Shown here: positions 149 to 26,165 of the stretch, piece by piece
Position numbering within the stretch: position 1 is the stretch's first letter
Layout: the number at the start of each line of letters is the position of its first letter
Assembly: GCA_022824265.1 (NCBI GenBank)
Contig: JAJEAG010000091.1
Span: 1-61,441, forward strand
DNA from: Candidatus Poribacteria bacterium
GTDB taxonomy: Bacteria > Poribacteria > WGA-4E > WGA-3G
DNA length: 61,441 nucleotides
Reading direction: 5' to 3'
Position numbers and translations under genes: made by a program
The notes under the pieces: model-generated
What the model was told of the DNA's origin: nothing
The model's database searches: none
Seen by the model: only the letters and a program-made list of their open reading frames with translations

Positions 149-901
149 ATGAAATCAAAATTAGGTAGTTTGTTTTTAATAATTTCTGTCACATTAATGA
201 TTGGACTTACAGGATGTACGTCTGTCCAAGACGTGATATTTGATTCTGTTCAACCTGAAGATAGCATGGTTGATGCCACTCCAGTCAAATTAGTATTGTT
301 AGTTGACTACCCTGAAGGTGGAAAAGATGCCTACATAGCGTGGGTTCAATCTGTTGCGGCAACTCTGCAAGCACCAGAAGAAGTCACACGGATACGCTCA
401 TACGACAATCAAGACCAAACCATGAGTCCAAATCGACTTGTTGAATTTGAATTTGATAGTTATCTGGATTCGGCAGCATATTTCAATCGTCCTGAGATCA
501 TAGAAATTATGAGTGATCTACCCAATCATACAAGCAACTCTACCATACATACGTTTATACAGCGATCCGATTACGCGAAAGCAGAGGAAGGTAACTGGCC
601 GGTTAAAGGCGTATTGTTGATAAATTATCCCCTTGGTGGAAAACAGGCATATCTGGATTGGGTTGATTCCGTTTCTTCAACGTTAGTCGGACCATCTCAA
701 TTGCAGTCAATTGCATCCTACGACAATTATTATGGTGGATCTCCACATCGTTTGGTTGATTTTGAGTATGCAAGCGAAGAAGATGCAACAACTTATGAGG
801 AGTTGGAAGAAATACAGGCTATTGAGGACGAACTTGATGTCCGCACTGCAGGATGGGAATCACACACATTTCTATTACGATCAGATTACATCAATGAATA
901 A
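149..901 (+). CDS. Lipoprotein with two tandem alpha/beta repeats
   Basis: This is a 250-residue lipoprotein of unknown function. The first 23 residues form a lipoprotein signal with lipobox LTGC (Cys23), and a strong AGGAGG (136-141) precedes the ATG. The mature part is an internal duplication. Residues about 45-141 and 151-247 both read PVK, a hydrophobic strand, YPxGGKxAYxxWVxSV, SYDN, then RLV(E/D)FE and end in (Q/L)RSDY. The length and strand-helix pattern resemble dimeric alpha-beta-barrel (ferredoxin-like) domains, so one chain may mimic a dimer. That fold assignment is inference. The gene starts right after an IS605-type right end. Confidence 0.7.
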   Translation: MKSKLGSLFLIISVTLMIGLTGCTSVQDVIFDSVQPEDSMVDATPVKLVLLVDYPEGGKDAYIAWVQSVAATLQAPEEVTRIRSYDNQDQTMSPNRLVEFEFDSYLDSAAYFNRPEIIEIMSDLPNHTSNSTIHTFIQRSDYAKAEEGNWPVKGVLLINYPLGGKQAYLDWVDSVSSTLVGPSQLQSIASYDNYYGGSPHRLVDFEYASEEDATTYEELEEIQAIEDELDVRTAGWESHTFLLRSDYINE

Positions 902-949
902 ACAGTATTAAATAAAATTATAGTTATAATTTATTTTACTAACAATATA

Positions 950-981
950 TTGATGATATAAACAATATATCATCAAGGAGG
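950..981 (+). promoter_or_regulatory. 11-bp A/U-rich hairpin running into the Shine-Dalgarno of the DUF1080 gene
   Basis: TTGATGATATA (950-960) and TATATCATCAA (966-976) are perfect inverted repeats with a five-base loop. The 3' arm shares its last two bases with the AAGGAGG ribosome-binding site (975-981). It could be a weak translational control hairpin, an operator, or the 3' end of the upstream transcript. No T-run follows, so an intrinsic terminator is unlikely. Confidence 0.4.
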
Positions 982-987
982 AAATTT

Positions 988-1614
988 ATGTTACATACAC
1001 CCCCAGAATCCGCTGTGATTCTTTTTGATGGAACAGACCTAAGCAATTGGGTAGGTCGCGACGGAGACGAACCGAAATGGAAAGTTGAAGGTGACGCTAT
1101 GATTTGTGAACCACGTACTGGTGACATCTCAAGTAAGGAAACCTTTACTGACCATTTCCTCCACCTTGAATTTATGACACCCGATATGCCTGAAGCAAGT
1201 GGACAAGCTAAAGGTAATAGCGGAGTATTCCTACAGGGAAGATATGAAATTCAGGTCTTGGATTCCTATGGTATTGAAGTACCCGGCAAAGGTGATTGTG
1301 GTGCTATTTACAATCAATTTGCTGCACTTGTAAATGCCTGTAAACCACCGCTTGAATGGCAAACCTATGATGTTATTTTCCGTGCTCCCCGTTTCAACGA
1401 TGCAGGTGATATGACTGAAAACGTCCGAGTGACTGCCCTACAAAATGGGTTGGTAATCCTAAACAACGTTCAACTTCCTGGAACCACAGCCGGTGGTGCC
1501 GATTCAGAAATAGCAAAACCGGGTCCGCTACGTTTACAAGACCACGGCAATTTTGTCCAGTATCGTAACATCTGGGCAGTACCACTTCCACTTGAAGGTT
1601 CTGATCAATACTAA
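988..1614 (+). CDS. DUF1080 (3-keto-disaccharide hydrolase family) protein
   Basis: This 208-residue protein consists of a single DUF1080 domain, a concanavalin-like beta-sandwich found in sugar-processing proteins and named for 3-keto-disaccharide hydrolases. Family marks are LFDGTDLSNWVG near the N terminus, a lone strand HLEFMTP, GNSGVFLQGRYEIQVLDSYG, GAIYNQ, EWQTYDVIFRAPRF, and a C-terminal GPLRLQDHG followed by YRNIW. No signal peptide is visible, which is unusual because most relatives are exported. The ATG sits seven bases after a strong AAGGAGG. The substrate cannot be told from the sequence. Confidence 0.88.
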   Translation: MLHTPPESAVILFDGTDLSNWVGRDGDEPKWKVEGDAMICEPRTGDISSKETFTDHFLHLEFMTPDMPEASGQAKGNSGVFLQGRYEIQVLDSYGIEVPGKGDCGAIYNQFAALVNACKPPLEWQTYDVIFRAPRFNDAGDMTENVRVTALQNGLVILNNVQLPGTTAGGADSEIAKPGPLRLQDHGNFVQYRNIWAVPLPLEGSDQY

Positions 1615-1637
1615 TGTATTTGCAACTATGAATTATA

Positions 1638-1692
1638 GCGTCCTATCCTCTGTAGTGATGAGTCTATCTTGTTCCTACAAAAGATAGGACGC
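1638..1692. terminator. Long-loop inverted repeat after the DUF1080 gene
   Basis: GCGTCCTATC (1638-1647) pairs with GATAGGACGC (1683-1692) across a 35-base loop. It lies just downstream of the DUF1080 stop codon and may stabilise or end its mRNA, but no T-run follows. ATAGGACGCA occurs again at about 2522, so it could also be a small dispersed repeat. Confidence 0.35.
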
Positions 1693-1843
1693 AGTGCCAA
1701 AACATATCACGCTCAACATAATTTTGCTTGAATTTTAAGATTGACAGACCAATTCCAAATTAGACACTATAATGATTTAAACCAATGTGTCTAATAATTC
1801 CAAGACTAAAATATAGATAAAAGAAAATAGGATGTTGGTCATA

Positions 1844-1872
1844 TTGACATCAATACATTTCTGTGATATATT
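1844..1872 (+). promoter_or_regulatory. Sigma70-like promoter
   Basis: TTGACA (1844-1849), a 17-base spacer and TATATT (1867-1872) match a housekeeping promoter. Transcription would begin at about 1879. That is downstream of the ATG at 1876 and supports the start at 1903 for the next gene. Confidence 0.55.
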
Positions 1873-1902
1873 CCAATGCAAGTAAAATCAATAGGTGATA
1901 TT

Positions 1903-2436
1903 ATGAATATCCAACAGAAGATAATCACTTTTGTTCTTCTCCTTATAGTCAGTGTTATAGTAGTTGGTTGTGCACAGAAACTTACTGAGGAACAAACTTT
2001 TGCTGAATCACAGGCTATATCGGATTTTATTTACAACTATTCGGTTGAAAGTCAAAAGGCTTTCCAAAAAATACACCAACATAAGAATCTACCAGTCAAT
2101 GCAACAATAACCCCTATTTCAATACCCCCTGAAAAAAAGATCGGGAACCGGAACAAAAGACTGGTCCTGCTCAGTCCCAATGCATCTTTAAGATGGCTTC
2201 GTGCATACGGTTTTAAAGTTAATATAACGAGTTATGCAGTAATGATTTCGCTGAAAAAAGGTAATTCTCATACAAAATCTTACAGTTCACGTCCAAGGAA
2301 ATACTCGAAAGTTGATGACCCGCAATACTTACAGATAGATCATTCTAAGATAAGAATTACAGGAATAACGCGTTGGGGAGATGTAATGTGGATAACAGAT
2401 CAATATGGTAAATTACGCGTTCTAACGTATGAATAG
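1903..2436 (+). CDS. Lipoprotein of unknown function
   Basis: Not recognised. From the ATG at 1903 the protein has 177 residues, starting with a lipoprotein signal (MNIQQKIITF, then a hydrophobic stretch) and lipobox VVGC. The frame is open from an ATG at 1876. The later start is preferred because it gives a proper signal peptide, has AGGTGAT just upstream, and lies downstream of the predicted promoter. The mature part is basic, has a segment rich in Lys, Ser and Arg around SYSSRPRKYSKVDD, and ends with a beta-rich stretch (ITGITRWGDVMWITDQYG). It was not matched to a family. Confidence 0.65.
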   Translation: MNIQQKIITFVLLLIVSVIVVGCAQKLTEEQTFAESQAISDFIYNYSVESQKAFQKIHQHKNLPVNATITPISIPPEKKIGNRNKRLVLLSPNASLRWLRAYGFKVNITSYAVMISLKKGNSHTKSYSSRPRKYSKVDDPQYLQIDHSKIRITGITRWGDVMWITDQYGKLRVLTYE

Positions 2437-2629
2437 TGTCGAGCAATATCTAACAATTTTTATGTCTTTACCAAGAATTACAAAGAAGATTAGAGATCAC
2501 AAGAAACTGAAACTACATAGTATAGGACGCACATTAAATTGTACTACTACAAACACTGTATTGTATGAGAAGGTCATACATAAGTACAATTAACTTTTTA
2601 AACATATCCACGATAATAAGGAGAATTAT

Positions 2630-3580
2630 ATGGCAAATCAACCTTTACCAACAGTTCCTCGACGACGATTGGGCAGAACAGAGTTAAGCATTCCTGTCAT
2701 CCCTTATGGCACACAAGGTTTCGGGAATAATTTTGGATTTGTGTCAGATGAAGATGCAGTTGCACTTATTAAACACGCAGTCTCTATCGGTTGTAATCAT
2801 TTCGATTGTGCCCGTTGTTACGGAGATTCACTACGGAAACTTGGTTTGGCGATGAAGGAGATACCACGCGAGGATGTAATCATTACAGCGAGACTTTGTT
2901 GCCATTCTGCAGCGGATTGGGGTGGATATGGACAAGGTAGACCCGACTATTCCGCAGACCGTGCAATCGCAGATTTGGAAGATCAACTAAAAATACTAAA
3001 TATTGACTATCTTGACGGTATGTTAATCCACGATCCACATGAAATTGACCCAACACTTGAAAAAGGTGGGACACTTGAAGGGTTGCTCAAATGTAAAGAC
3101 CGTGGACTTGTCAGACACGTCGGATACGGTATGCGTCAACACGATTTTCATCTCAAAGCTATCGCAACTGGTGATGTTGACCTACTCTTGTGTTTTAACG
3201 ACTACAACCTTATACGACAAACTGTTAAGGATACTATTCTCCCTGCTGCAGCGGAAGCCGATATCGGTGTGATGAACGGATGGTCTATCCTGCGTGGTAT
3301 CCTCACGGATGTTAACATTGATGATGAAATTGCTCGTGGACGTTGGAAAAAAGAAGGCGACGTTGCAGCAGCATACCCGATATGGCAATGGTGTGTTGAA
3401 GAAGGCATCAGTATATTACAACTTGCAATTCAGTTCTGTCTGAAAGATGAGCGGATTCACGGAAATAACATTGGCAGCCTCAATGTTGAGCAATTAGAGG
3501 CAAATGTCCGCGCCGCCAGCACACCTATACCGGACGAAGTTTGGGAAAAATACGAAGCAAAATTCGGTTCACAGAATTAA
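2630..3580 (+). CDS. Aldo/keto reductase family protein with Lys-to-Arg change in the catalytic tetrad
   Basis: This 316-residue protein has the TIM-barrel layout of the aldo/keto reductases, which normally reduce carbonyls with NADPH. It opens with RRRLGRTELSIPVI. The usual Asp-Tyr-Lys-His tetrad reads Asp59 and Tyr64 (FDCARCYG), Arg88 (IITARLCC) where Lys is expected, and His134 (LIHDPHE). The C-terminal part (ISILQLAIQFCL, then SLNVEQLEANV) matches the cofactor-binding end of the barrel. AAGGAG lies upstream of the ATG. The 3' end overlaps convergent mutY by 12 bases. The missing lysine leaves reductase activity uncertain. Confidence 0.85.
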   Translation: MANQPLPTVPRRRLGRTELSIPVIPYGTQGFGNNFGFVSDEDAVALIKHAVSIGCNHFDCARCYGDSLRKLGLAMKEIPREDVIITARLCCHSAADWGGYGQGRPDYSADRAIADLEDQLKILNIDYLDGMLIHDPHEIDPTLEKGGTLEGLLKCKDRGLVRHVGYGMRQHDFHLKAIATGDVDLLLCFNDYNLIRQTVKDTILPAAAEADIGVMNGWSILRGILTDVNIDDEIARGRWKKEGDVAAAYPIWQWCVEEGISILQLAIQFCLKDERIHGNNIGSLNVEQLEANVRAASTPIPDEVWEKYEAKFGSQN

Positions 3581-4651
3581 TTTATCAAGAAATTTATGGG
3601 TTGCTCGCGGAAGTGGATAATCCTGTAGAGCATTGAGTTTTACCCAATCTGCTTGTATCGGTCCATTTAGTTTTACCTCACCCGAATGATAATTGCATTC
3701 AAACACATCCAGGACAATTTTGAAATGGGTGAATGCGTGTCTGACACGGGTGAGGTATTTTATATTAATGACTGAAAGATTGACAATTTCGGTGATGTAG
3801 CGGGTGCATGCTTGTTCTGCTGTTTCACCTTCTGCAATTCGTCCATTAGGAAATTCCCAGAGTCCACCCAGCAAACCATCAAGCGGACGCTGTACGATTA
3901 ACACTTCATTACCTTTGTATATGACACCAGCGACCATATTGTGTTCTGGAACTTTCTCTTTCTTGAGTCTACGTGGAAATTCATCTTGACGGTTTGCTTG
4001 GAATGCCTGACAATAGGTATTCACCGGACAAACAAGACAAGTCGGGGATTGAGGACGACAGACAGTTGCCCCCAATTCCATCATCGCCTGATTGAAAATA
4101 CCGGGTTCTTCCAAATCCAAAAGCTCATCTGCTTTCTGTTGAAATTGTTTCGCTGACCTTCCATCACTTATTGGTGTCTCCATCATGAAAAGTCGCGCCA
4201 AAACACGTTTTATATTCCCGTCAACCGCTGCATAAGTGGAATTATATGCTATGCTCTGCACTGCTGCCGCAGTGTAATCACCTACTCCCGGTAACTTTCG
4301 AAAAGGCTTATATTCATTCGGCACTACTCCATTGAAATCCTCTACAACAATCTGTGCTGCTTTATGAAAATTACGCGCCCTTGCATAATATCCCAAACCT
4401 TCCCATACCTTCAGTACATCTTGAAGTGTTGCCTCTGCAAATTGATAGATATCTGGAAATCTATCTATAAATCTTTCATAATACCCAACAACTTTTTTCA
4501 CTTGTGTCTGTTGTAACATTATCTCAGAAACCCATATCCGATAAGGGTCATCAATATCCCGCCACGGCAATTCACGTTTATGTTTTTTGAACCAAGTCAA
4601 CAAGATTTCACGAAAATCATCTCGTGATTCTGAGATAAGTTGTTTTGACAT
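3569..4651 (-). CDS. mutY: A/G-specific adenine glycosylase MutY
   Basis: MutY removes adenine mispaired with 8-oxoguanine in base-excision repair. From the ATG at 4651 the protein has 360 residues, close to the family norm. Catalytic Glu43 lies in SEIMLQQTQV, the helix-hairpin-helix in LPGVGDYTAAAV, and catalytic Asp144 in AVDGNIKRVLAR. The iron-sulfur cluster cysteines are Cys198, 205, 208 and 214 (CX6CX2CX5C). A NUDIX-like MutY C-terminal domain (VLIVQRP, then LLGGLWEFPNG) recognises 8-oxoG. The frame also opens at a TTG at 4702, but that adds a poor N terminus. The gene is convergent with the aldo/keto reductase gene. Confidence 0.95.
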   Translation of the reverse strand: MSKQLISESRDDFREILLTWFKKHKRELPWRDIDDPYRIWVSEIMLQQTQVKKVVGYYERFIDRFPDIYQFAEATLQDVLKVWEGLGYYARARNFHKAAQIVVEDFNGVVPNEYKPFRKLPGVGDYTAAAVQSIAYNSTYAAVDGNIKRVLARLFMMETPISDGRSAKQFQQKADELLDLEEPGIFNQAMMELGATVCRPQSPTCLVCPVNTYCQAFQANRQDEFPRRLKKEKVPEHNMVAGVIYKGNEVLIVQRPLDGLLGGLWEFPNGRIAEGETAEQACTRYITEIVNLSVINIKYLTRVRHAFTHFKIVLDVFECNYHSGEVKLNGPIQADWVKLNALQDYPLPRATHKFLDKLIL

Positions 4652-23935: not shown

Positions 23936-24382
23936 GTACCAATACTAAACGATTATGTCCCATTATTTCGTAGGTCGGAGCGAGCGTAGCGACCTCCATA
24001 GGCGTCAATTTAAGAACCTGTCTCTTGTGGTAGTTCCTTGTCTGACCGATTTCAGACTTCACACCTTTCGCACCGCTGGTGCTTTGGGTTTTTGTTGTAT
24101 TAGGTTCTACACACCTTTCGCACCACTGGTGCTAAGATATGCTTTGCTAAAGCCTCGGAGAGGCGAAAGGTGTATAGTAAACGTTAATCCTGCTAACAGC
24201 AAGCCCCAGAGGGGCGAAAGGTATATCAGAAGCACTAACGTTACACACTAAATTGACGCTTATGGAGCGAGCGTAGCGACCTCCGACAATGGATACCAAA
24301 TGAAATCTTATGTGTCGGAGGTCGCTACGCTCGCTCCGACCTACAGTTTATTATGACAATCTATCATTTAGAAATGGAATTA
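23936..24382. repeat. Foldback (MITE-like) element, copy A
   Basis: About 450 bases bounded by imperfect inverted arms. The left arm runs from ACCAATACTAAACG through CGTAGGTCGGAGCG to CATAGGCGTCAATTTAAG, and the right arm mirrors it (TAAATTGACGCTTATGG, CTCCGACCTACAG, ATTTAGAAATGG). Inside are several ACACCTTTCGC/GCGAAAGGT pairs. At 24264-24288 and 24313-24337 there is a perfect 25-bp inverted repeat. The same arms and the inner AAGCCCCAG...GGGGCGAAAGG module recur at 39770-40169. The short open frame at 23955-24251 lies inside the repeat and is not a gene. Confidence 0.7.
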
Positions 24383-24540: not shown

Positions 24541-25554
24541 ATGTTTCAAAAACTAATTATTCAAACTGTTGGAGTCGTGTTTTTATTTACATTGATTCTG
24601 ACTCCAGCAGTCTTAGCGGAGAAAGAAGTGGAAAAACCGAAAGAACTTACTGTTGGCATGGTTGCGCCAGATTTTACACTGAAAGATGAAACTGGCAAAG
24701 ACCGTAATCTTAACGAATTTTTAGGTAAGAAAAACGTTGTACTTGCCTTTTATCCGAAAGACTTTACGGGTGGCTGAACTACCGAACTTCAGTCGCTCCG
24801 GGATAAATTGAGCGACATAGAAAAAACGGAAACTGTTCTGTTCGGTGTCAGTGTTGACTCTGTTGATTCACACAAACGTTTTAGAGAAGAACAAAAGTTT
24901 GGATTTTCACTGCTTGCCGATACTGAATTTGAGGTAAGCAAGCAGTATAGCGGAATTATTGAAAGATTCAACGCATCAAAACGAACGACTTTTATTATTG
25001 ACAAAGCGGGATATATACGTGCTATAGATAAAGATGTGAAAGTAAAAACGCACGGTGAAGATGTCGTTGTCCTACTGAATAAAGTCATTCCTAAGATAGA
25101 AGTTGGACAGTCTGCACCAGATTTTATTGCTAAAGATAGTGAAGGAAAAGAGCACCAACTCAGCAAGTTACAAGAGAAAAAGAATGTTGCATTAGTTTTT
25201 TATCCGAGAGATTTTGGTCGTGGCTGAACGCTCCAAGTTTGCTCGCTCCGTGATGAGTCGAGTAGTTTTGAAAAATACGATGTACAGGTCTTTGGTATTA
25301 CCCACAACGATACTGATTCACACCAGAAATTTACTGAACAGAATAATCTGAATTTCCCTCTGTTGGTAGATACTAACAAGAACCTTGCTTACCTATTTGG
25401 TGCTGCAATTGAGGATAAGGAACGGTACAAGCGGATAACGTTTATTATTGATAAGACAGGTAAGATCGTCAAAATTGACAAAGAGGTGAATCCAGCTACA
25501 CACGGATTAGATTTAGTGAATTACTTCAAGAACAATCCGTCATCCAGTAATTAA
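24541..25554 (+). CDS. Secreted tandem peroxiredoxin with two selenocysteines (UGA at codons 79 and 229)
   Basis: One reading frame runs from the ATG at 24541 to the TAA at 25552-25554 and is broken only by TGA at 24775-24777 and 25225-25227. With both read as Sec it gives 337 residues: a signal peptide ending near AVLA-E, then two AhpC/Bcp-type domains (about 35-180 and 185-335). Each has VG(M/Q)xAPDF, then VxLxFYP(K/R)DF and GG-U-TTE or RG-U-TLQVC, the peroxidatic Cys position of Bcp/PrxQ. Domain 2 also keeps Cys234, five residues on, as the resolving Cys of E. coli Bcp; domain 1 has Gln84 there. The family reduces peroxides; Sec makes this faster. A nonsense explanation is unlikely because both codons hit the same catalytic site. 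Confidence 0.88.
24792..24816 (+). promoter_or_regulatory. SECIS-like hairpin after the first UGA
   Basis: GTCGCTC (24792-24798) and GAGCGAC (24810-24816) form a perfect 7-bp stem with the loop CGGGATAAATT. The loop GG is about 23 bases past the UGA, within the window where bacterial SECIS loops bind SelB. It lies inside the coding sequence, as bacterial SECIS elements do. Confidence 0.65.
25242..25262 (+). promoter_or_regulatory. SECIS-like hairpin after the second UGA
   Basis: CTCGCTC (25242-25248) pairs with GAGTCGAG (25255-25262), leaving one bulged T and the loop CGTGAT. The loop is 22-27 bases past the UGA and contains GU, as bacterial SECIS apical loops often do. The stem shares CGCTC with the first hairpin. 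Confidence 0.6.
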
Positions 25555-26165
25555 TGAATCCTAATAATACCTCACCATTATGGGAACGGATTGCGTTGTG
25601 GACATCAGCAATATTCAGTCCATTTATCATTCCAATAGTAGCGGCTGTTTTCGTAATTCACAAGAATGCTGGAACAACTGAAGAAGTCTTACTATGGATT
25701 GCTGTTGTGGCGATATTTGTAACAGTACTGCCTATAGTAGCAATAGTCTTACTGTTTCGGTTGTCAAAGGTGAGTAATGTACATTTGCACGACAAAGATG
25801 AACGACTGTTACCACTCAGTTTAACAGTCGTCAGTATGATACTAGGGACAATTGTTCTTTATCGTATGAATGCAAATGAGAGAATAATCTGGGTGTGTCA
25901 AGCGTACATTGTCAACAGCGTAGTTTTTTCAGCGATCACACCTTTCTGGAAAATAAGTTTTCACACGAGTGTCGCTACAGGATGTATTATTGTCTTAACG
26001 TTATTCGTCAATTTTATTTATGTATGGCTTTTCCTACTTATTCCGTTGATTGCTTGGGCACGAATTTATCGTAAACGACATACACCACTTCAAACTGTTA
26101 TGGGTACGTTGTTAGCATTTGTGATAACAATGCTCTATTACTATATTCTACCACCATCGGTATGA
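25554..26165 (+). CDS. PAP2-like polytopic membrane protein
   Basis: This 203-residue protein has about six hydrophobic segments. Two short motifs recall PAP2 lipid-phosphate phosphatases: KISFHTSVATG (cf. the PSGH motif) and ARIYRKRHTPLQTVMG (cf. SRxxxxxHxxxD, with the final Asp replaced). The match is to the divergent PAP2-like group, so catalysis is uncertain. Its ATG shares an A with the stop of the selenoprotein gene (TAATG), so the two are translationally coupled. Confidence 0.7.
   Translation: MNPNNTSPLWERIALWTSAIFSPFIIPIVAAVFVIHKNAGTTEEVLLWIAVVAIFVTVLPIVAIVLLFRLSKVSNVHLHDKDERLLPLSLTVVSMILGTIVLYRMNANERIIWVCQAYIVNSVVFSAITPFWKISFHTSVATGCIIVLTLFVNFIYVWLFLLIPLIAWARIYRKRHTPLQTVMGTLLAFVITMLYYYILPPSV

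Follow-up and report, generated by a model that had tools for sequence, protein, structure and literature searches.

The window analysed here, a stretch of 61,441 nucleotides from a Candidatus Poribacteria bacterium, carries on its plus strand a gene for a tandem peroxiredoxin (24541–25554) whose frame contains two TGA codons. Read with TGA as selenocysteine (Sec, U), the gene translates to 337 residues followed by a TAA stop, with exactly two recoded codons. The AhpC-TSA family (Pfam PF00578) matches the protein in two stretches, with a whole-protein score of 233.7 bits (cut-off 26), and each stretch includes one TGA: domain 1 lies at 24652–25023 (114.9 bits) and domain 2 at 25102–25473 (110.4 bits). 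By translation and alignment, UGA codon 79 (24775–24777, motif TGGUTTELQ) falls at the peroxidatic position of domain 1, and UGA codon 229 (25225–25227, motif GRGUTLQVC) at that of domain 2. A sequence-only reading of this DNA had claimed that the frame is interrupted only at these two positions, each the active site of an AhpC/TSA domain, and the translation and the Pfam matches confirm it. The predicted redox chalcogens of the protein are restricted to U79, U229, and Cys234 (25240–25242), the sole cysteine, which lies five residues after U229 and is a candidate resolving residue for it; Gln occupies the equivalent position in domain 1. Residues 1–26 (24541–24618), ending in PAVLA and followed by EKE, resemble a cleavable signal peptide when judged by eye, and in alignments the N-terminus of the relatives is hydrophobic and poorly conserved. 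In a standard list of open reading frames of at least 100 codons, the peroxiredoxin frame appears only as a 139-codon fragment. Immediately downstream lies a gene for a PAP2-like protein (25554–26165, plus strand), the ATG of whose reading frame overlaps the peroxiredoxin stop codon by 1 nt. Upstream, a short inverted-repeat-like stretch at 24314–24341 (gtcggaggtcgctacgctcgctccgacc) is possibly an interspersed repeat.

Marine sponges are the main source from which Poribacteria are known. Among 84 genomes of the phylum that were searched, 72 belong to the order of the window (58 in family f1 and 14 in families f2–f4, as grouped by kinship). The full tandem gene was found in 62 of these 72 genomes, including that of the window, with identities to the window protein down to 50%, and all 62 genes have TGA at both sites and Cys at neither. 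Seven of the 58 f1 genomes gave no match at E 1e-20 (G032, G038, G047, G050, G067, G071, and G076), one of which, G038, is 96% complete. The three remaining genomes of the order harbor the gene split in two pieces (G031), a partial gene (G059), or a single-domain form only (G016). When copies identical beyond residue 20 are counted once, and with GenBank records L058–L060 representing the loci of G063, G068, and G062, the alignment comprises 63 distinct tandem rows. Residue 79 is U in 62 of them and Ser in one, whereas residue 229 is U and residue 234 Cys in all 63. The row with Ser (L099, 1010–2107) is a second tandem copy in G044, which has kept the domain 2 Sec codon and has no signal-like start. 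A scan of genome contigs with peptides specific to the window protein returned 14 loci, 11 from metagenome bins of Poribacteria (identity 69–95%) and 3 distant. On these sequence comparisons, the gene represents a conserved subfamily of tandem peroxiredoxins with two predicted Sec residues in an order of Poribacteria.

The genome that contains the window (4.45 Mb in 100 contigs, 96.66% complete) encodes the machinery for selenocysteine insertion, the absence of which had been named beforehand as an outcome that would speak against the two-Sec reading. A tRNA-Sec with anticodon TCA scores 78.1 bits (cut-off 47). The selB match (353.8 bits) ends about 60 nt upstream of this tRNA gene on contig C34, and selA (608.8 bits) and selD (361.8 bits) are encoded in the same genome, selD having an in-frame TGA of its own in the motif CAGU. 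The matches to selA, selB, selC, and selD are all above their family cut-offs. Across the phylum, a search at E 1e-10 detected tRNA-Sec in 71 of the 84 genomes, including 56 of the 62 with the tandem gene. The six tandem genomes with no match in that search (G024, G029, G035, G048, G060, and G077) are perhaps explained by gaps in draft assemblies or by its stricter filters.

Bacterial SECIS hairpins lie just downstream of the UGA codon and present a G close to the beginning of the apical loop. Folding and pair counts identify a candidate of this kind after each of the two codons. Hairpin 1 (24792–24816) has 7 bp and an 11-nt loop beginning with CGGGA, and hairpin 2 (25240–25264) has a stem of 9 bp interrupted by a bulged U and capped by a 6-nt loop, whose sequence in the window is CGUGAU. 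Their folding energies are -10.6 and -14.4 kcal/mol, with z-scores of -2.09 and -2.39, respectively, against dinucleotide shuffles. The second loop base (column 26) is G in 32/32 domain 1 rows (of 44 distinct windows) and in 52/52 domain 2 rows. Codon usage was compared over residues 36–332 in 62 genes (L099 omitted), using the 179 columns in which one amino acid accounts for at least 80% of rows, columns of U, Met, and Trp being dropped. The median relative codon entropy is 0.26 in the 23 conserved columns located within 16 codons after either UGA versus 0.81 in the other 156 (Mann-Whitney p 7.8e-11, a value that is nominal because the rows are related; the same rows supply the control columns). 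Several codons are invariant, such as CTC for Leu86 (62/62) and Leu236 (61/61), GAT for Asp238 (62/62), and GAG for Glu239 (62/62). For the 45 nt that follow each codon, folding energy was also set against codon shuffles that preserve the protein, in every third of the 62 genes (21) and at 142 positions. Residue 229 has the lowest value (-1.99) and residue 79 the fourth lowest (-1.38); positions 226–230 and 78–82 account for all of the eight lowest of the 142.

Covariation within the two stems is thin. For hairpin 2, 94.0% of cells are paired over all 52 distinct windows, compared with 29.7–45.1% when the pattern is slid, and two pairs are doubly changed; of its nine pairs, two are not formed in 15 and 12 of the 52 rows, respectively, and its further pair types do not exceed those of shuffles, 500 of 500 of which reach the count. 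For hairpin 1, the corresponding figures are 96.9% and 18.8–57.1% in the 32 of 44 distinct windows that belong to f1, and the sampled domain 1 windows of f2–f4 adopt a fold that differs from the f1 hairpin. Six of the seven pairs of hairpin 1 never vary. The seventh shows CG, GC, UG, and AU types and is not formed in 7 of the 32 rows; 488 of 500 shuffles have at least as many doubly changed pairs. Taken together, the restricted codon choice and the folding results argue for a SECIS-like hairpin downstream of each TGA, with codon constraint carrying the greater weight.

Other in-frame TGA codons occur in the same genome. Seven of its 17 AhpC-TSA matches carry one, namely three genes on contig C12, one match on each of C70 and C76, and both domains of the window gene. 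The C12 genes (locus L128, C12:2500–9000, at 862–4162 of the locus) are adjacent and, by eye, lipoprotein-like; each consists of a carboxypeptidase-regulatory-like region and an AhpC-TSA domain with an in-frame TGA at the active site (GGWUPFC, GGLUPQC, and GGUTLC). Six UGA sites of the genome besides the two of the window gene were examined, selD included. The three C12 genes and C70 contain the stretch CTC-GGn-GAG, and selD contains CTC-CGGGT-GAG. These stem-loops (L128, L129, and L109) resemble hairpin 2, CTC-CGTGAT-GAG, and the C76 site has another hairpin. In properly placed windows, folding favors the shared hairpin over all other structures in the three C12 genes, and not in C70 or selD. 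As a control, the 44 nt after the selD UGA had no excess structure (z 0.30); the L128 control window covers only about 22 nt after the UGA and carries little weight.

The predicted fold is that of peroxiredoxins. An AlphaFold2 model, built from a 22-row alignment of locus proteins with C in place of U, reached a pLDDT of 86 and a pTM of 0.83. In a Foldseek search with this model Bcp1 (3drn) ranked best and AhpE (1xvw) sixth, both matches spanning roughly one domain, and a sequence search of solved structures likewise placed 3drn first and AhpE entries next. The catalytic Arg of domain 1 (R148) is present in 62/62 rows, R298 in 62/62, T76 in 62/62, and P72 in 61/63. Domain 1 of the window protein has an intact PxxxTxxU motif without a resolving Cys, and domain 2 has PxxxGxxU with a Cys at +5. 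An asymmetry in resolving cysteines, present in domain 2 and missing from domain 1, had been remarked on in the sequence-only reading; it holds for the genus of the window but does not extend to the whole family, where the +5 position of domain 1 holds C in 24 of the 63 rows, Q in 13, R in 13, N in 9, K in 3, and S in 1. The 24 rows with Cys correspond to 21 of the 29 named rows of genus g3 plus the GenBank rows L058–L060.

With the machinery present and both UGA codons conserved, the proposal of a tandem peroxiredoxin with Sec at both active sites is supported. We consider it very probable that the product of the gene is a tandem peroxiredoxin, exported and belonging to the Bcp/PrxQ-AhpE group, with Sec placed at both peroxidatic positions by SelA, SelB, SelC, and SelD, each UGA being served by its own downstream hairpin. 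The protein would be exported to the periplasm or envelope, where the selenolate of each Sec would attack a peroxide. In domain 2, the resulting selenenic acid would be closed by Cys234 as a selenenylsulfide, and then reduced by a thioredoxin-like protein that receives its electrons from DsbD; a DsbD-type membrane protein encoded elsewhere in the genome (184.8 bits) is a plausible electron route to the envelope. Domain 1, which in most members has no partner Cys, would be reduced from outside by a small thiol or a thioredoxin-like protein, or by U229/C234 of the same chain. The protein is most likely an envelope peroxidase in which domain 1 acts as a 1-Sec enzyme in most members and domain 2 uses the Sec/Cys pair U229–C234.

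A more specific version of this preferred reading, which we regard as an appreciable but minority possibility, divides the labor within the chain: domain 1 would reduce the peroxide, and U229/C234 of domain 2 would form a built-in reductase with a thioredoxin-like protein as donor. The Thr of the peroxidatic motif matters for peroxide binding. At residue 226, the position in domain 2 that matches this Thr, all 49 f1 rows (46 named rows and the three GenBank records L058–L060, the row of the window included) have Gly, so that domain 2 of f1 lacks the full PxxxTxxC(U) motif. Because of this replacement, domain 2 of f1 may be a poor peroxidase, and yet U229 and C234 are kept throughout the 63 rows. 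Domain 1 has an unaltered PxxxTxxU motif and varies less than domain 2, with a mean pairwise identity of 0.774 versus 0.710 and the higher value in 1690 of 1891 pairs. It lacks a +5 Cys of its own in 39 of the 63 rows. The Gly of domain 2 and the stronger conservation of domain 1 suggest that, in f1, domain 1 serves as the main peroxidase and domain 2 has shifted toward the role of a redox partner. By contrast, Thr is kept in domain 2 of all 13 f2–f4 rows, and most of the named g3 rows carry their own Cys in domain 1; a relay is therefore not needed everywhere. In its narrowest form, the idea is that of a selenium relay in a single chain, in which a Sec/Cys module in domain 2 re-reduces the domain 1 Sec across the domain interface, and we hold it as tentatively as the division of labor itself, or very slightly more so. 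If true, a peroxidase and its reductase would be two copies of one fold, both dependent on selenium and both acting outside the cytoplasm.

The downstream gene raises a further alternative. Its product matches PF01569 with 26.8 bits, just under the cut-off of 27.2, and the gene is conserved in the f1 loci. A possible start codon for PAP2 lies -1 to +4 nt from the peroxiredoxin stop codon in 46 of 49 f1 loci, the start being taken as the in-frame start codon nearest to that stop, a choice that favors short distances. The two UGA codons could then act as a gate on expression: at low selenium, ribosomes would stall at UGA, expression of the linked PAP2-like gene would also be lowered, and the gene would serve as an envelope selenium sensor. 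The tight spacing and the retention of the pair in the f1 loci examined are compatible with such a gate, but close spacing is common in bacterial operons, and no PAP2 match was found within about 1 kb on each side of the f2–f4 tandem genes. We judge this explanation unlikely.

Far less credible is that UGA encodes another amino acid genome-wide, or that near-cognate suppression leaks through it. The full protein does require both UGA codons to be read, as this explanation would have it, but TGA serves as an ordinary stop. Among the 53 non-overlapping open reading frames of at least 100 codons in the window, 11 stop at TGA, 32 at TAA, and 10 at TAG, and TGA still accounts for 10 of 52 once the fragment inside the peroxiredoxin gene is dropped. 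Moreover, six of the 62 tandem genes (L023, L024, L026, L082, L090, and L093) terminate at a TGA after reading two earlier ones; recoding is therefore context-dependent. A genome-wide reassignment, another outcome named in advance as fatal to the two-Sec reading, thus did not materialize, and the specific Sec machinery and the SECIS-like constraint after each site also argue against it. Least probable of all is a decayed gene with random nonsense mutations or assembly errors, which would agree with the 139-codon fragment in the list of reading frames and is refuted by the constraint on both protein and synonymous sites and by the conservation of the same two codons in 62/62 tandem genes. The very small chance that the sequence-only reading ascribed to two such mutations is borne out by simple arithmetic, two random codons of 337 landing on exactly sites 79 and 229 with a probability of 1 in 56,616 (337 choose 2), and the recurrence of the two TGA codons across the order is the stronger argument. 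That the window gene encodes a selenoprotein is, as judged from sequence, near certain.

Phylogenetic analysis bears on the origin of the tandem. In a tree of 46 rows, the domain 1 rows cluster (98/96), and so do the rows of both domains combined (99/93), the single-domain protein L100 falling among those of domain 2. L100 (989–1450) is a single-domain Sec peroxiredoxin in G016 that has no signal-like start, and it may be a tandem that lost domain 1. A second tree, of 49 rows, adds Planctomycetota sequences and leaves out three rows used before that were long or distant, namely L099_D1, L062, and the C14 protein; the combined group is recovered at 90/88, and now includes L138, a long-branched Cys protein. 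One old duplication within the order is likely on the basis of these trees. A further proposal, that Sec predates the duplication, has been weakened: the nearest outgroups in the first tree are single-domain proteins with U, but the Cys protein L138 joins them after the Planctomycetota rows are added.

The Planctomycetota sequences come from a search of 392 genomes drawn from the phylum (E 1e-25, at most 5 candidates scored in each), which returned 42 matches in 40 genomes; no match with two TGA codons is listed among the 42. Ten of them were translated: L138–L141 and L143–L145 have Cys, L142 and L146 are single-domain proteins with U, and L137 has U followed by C. L137 (genome G150, minus strand, a frame of 376 codons) is itself a tandem peroxiredoxin that begins with a signal-like stretch and has UGA at its first peroxidatic position and Cys at the other. 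Its two halves group together in the tree (100/100), so that its duplication is apparently independent and a tandem peroxiredoxin with Sec probably arose at least twice. Alternation of Cys and UGA among homologues, put forward beforehand as a check on positions 79 and 229, is absent from the 63 tandem rows of the order, none of which has Cys at either residue, and is found among single-domain relatives and at the second site of L137. Cys is aligned to Sec in the single-domain relatives L104, L106, L138–L141, and L143–L145, and L135 is a single-domain protein with U. A scan of viral contigs with the family alignment found no relative, and phage (27) and plasmid (522) records contained only matches below 60% identity; among the phage (10) and plasmid (8) matches listed, all are the size of a single domain, about 400–520 bases.

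The order retains two Sec codons in a single enzyme that is probably exported; none of the 63 rows is a Cys version, and the cost is two UGA decodings per protein. This makes two questions testable, namely why selenium is used over sulfur at an extracytoplasmic site, and whether duplicated peroxiredoxin domains split catalysis and reduction. It also illustrates how a plain list of reading frames of at least 100 codons breaks a two-Sec gene. Poribacteria are among the dominant symbionts of sponges (PMC5649159), and none of the open-licence papers searched combines Poribacteria with selenoproteins.

Several known systems share parts of this architecture. One is Bcp/PrxQ (NF006960), whose family model the window protein matches with 189.3 bits, summed over its two domains, against a cut-off of 140. 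The +5 Cys of domain 2, the resolving position in Bcp, is common to both, whereas the window protein is a tandem, has a signal-like N-terminus, and carries Sec in place of Cys. Domain 1 (residues 36–163) matches the 1-Cys peroxiredoxin AhpE (1xvw) by sequence, and about one domain matches by fold, neither having a resolving Cys; the window protein differs in having Sec for Cys and in being fused to a second peroxiredoxin. The tandem L137 from the Planctomycetota search shares the two peroxiredoxin domains, the signal-like N-terminus, and the UGA of the first site, and differs by the Cys of its second site. Among peroxiredoxins already described with Sec, the bacterial enzyme with a TxxU motif (Table 1 of PMC13188914; PrxU, NF040737) has the AhpC/TSA fold and the peroxidatic Sec in common with the window protein, which scores 108.8 against the PrxU model, under its curated cut-off of 270. 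As listed in that table, the enzyme has one Sec per protein, whereas the window protein carries one in each of its two domains, behind a signal-like N-terminus. The same source, a 2026 inventory of 119 prokaryotic selenoprotein families and subfamilies, calls the PxxxTxxU motif crucial for peroxide binding; its Table 1 names no peroxiredoxin whose two domains carry a Sec each, and Poribacteria are absent from its main text (PMC13188914). A fusion of a peroxiredoxin to a phosphatase-like domain has been reported, in a section that describes no fusion of two peroxiredoxins (PMC2398784), and a survey of the Sargasso Sea noted Sec peroxiredoxins beside widespread Cys homologues, an occurrence that it called sporadic (PMC1088965). 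Finally, the peroxiredoxin-like thiol:disulfide selenoproteins with UxxC or UxxU motifs, as presented in the inventory, resemble the window protein in their PF00578 domain and in having one to two Sec residues (PMC13188914). In the UxxU proteins the two Sec lie three residues apart, whereas those predicted in the window protein are separated by 150 residues and reside in two domains.
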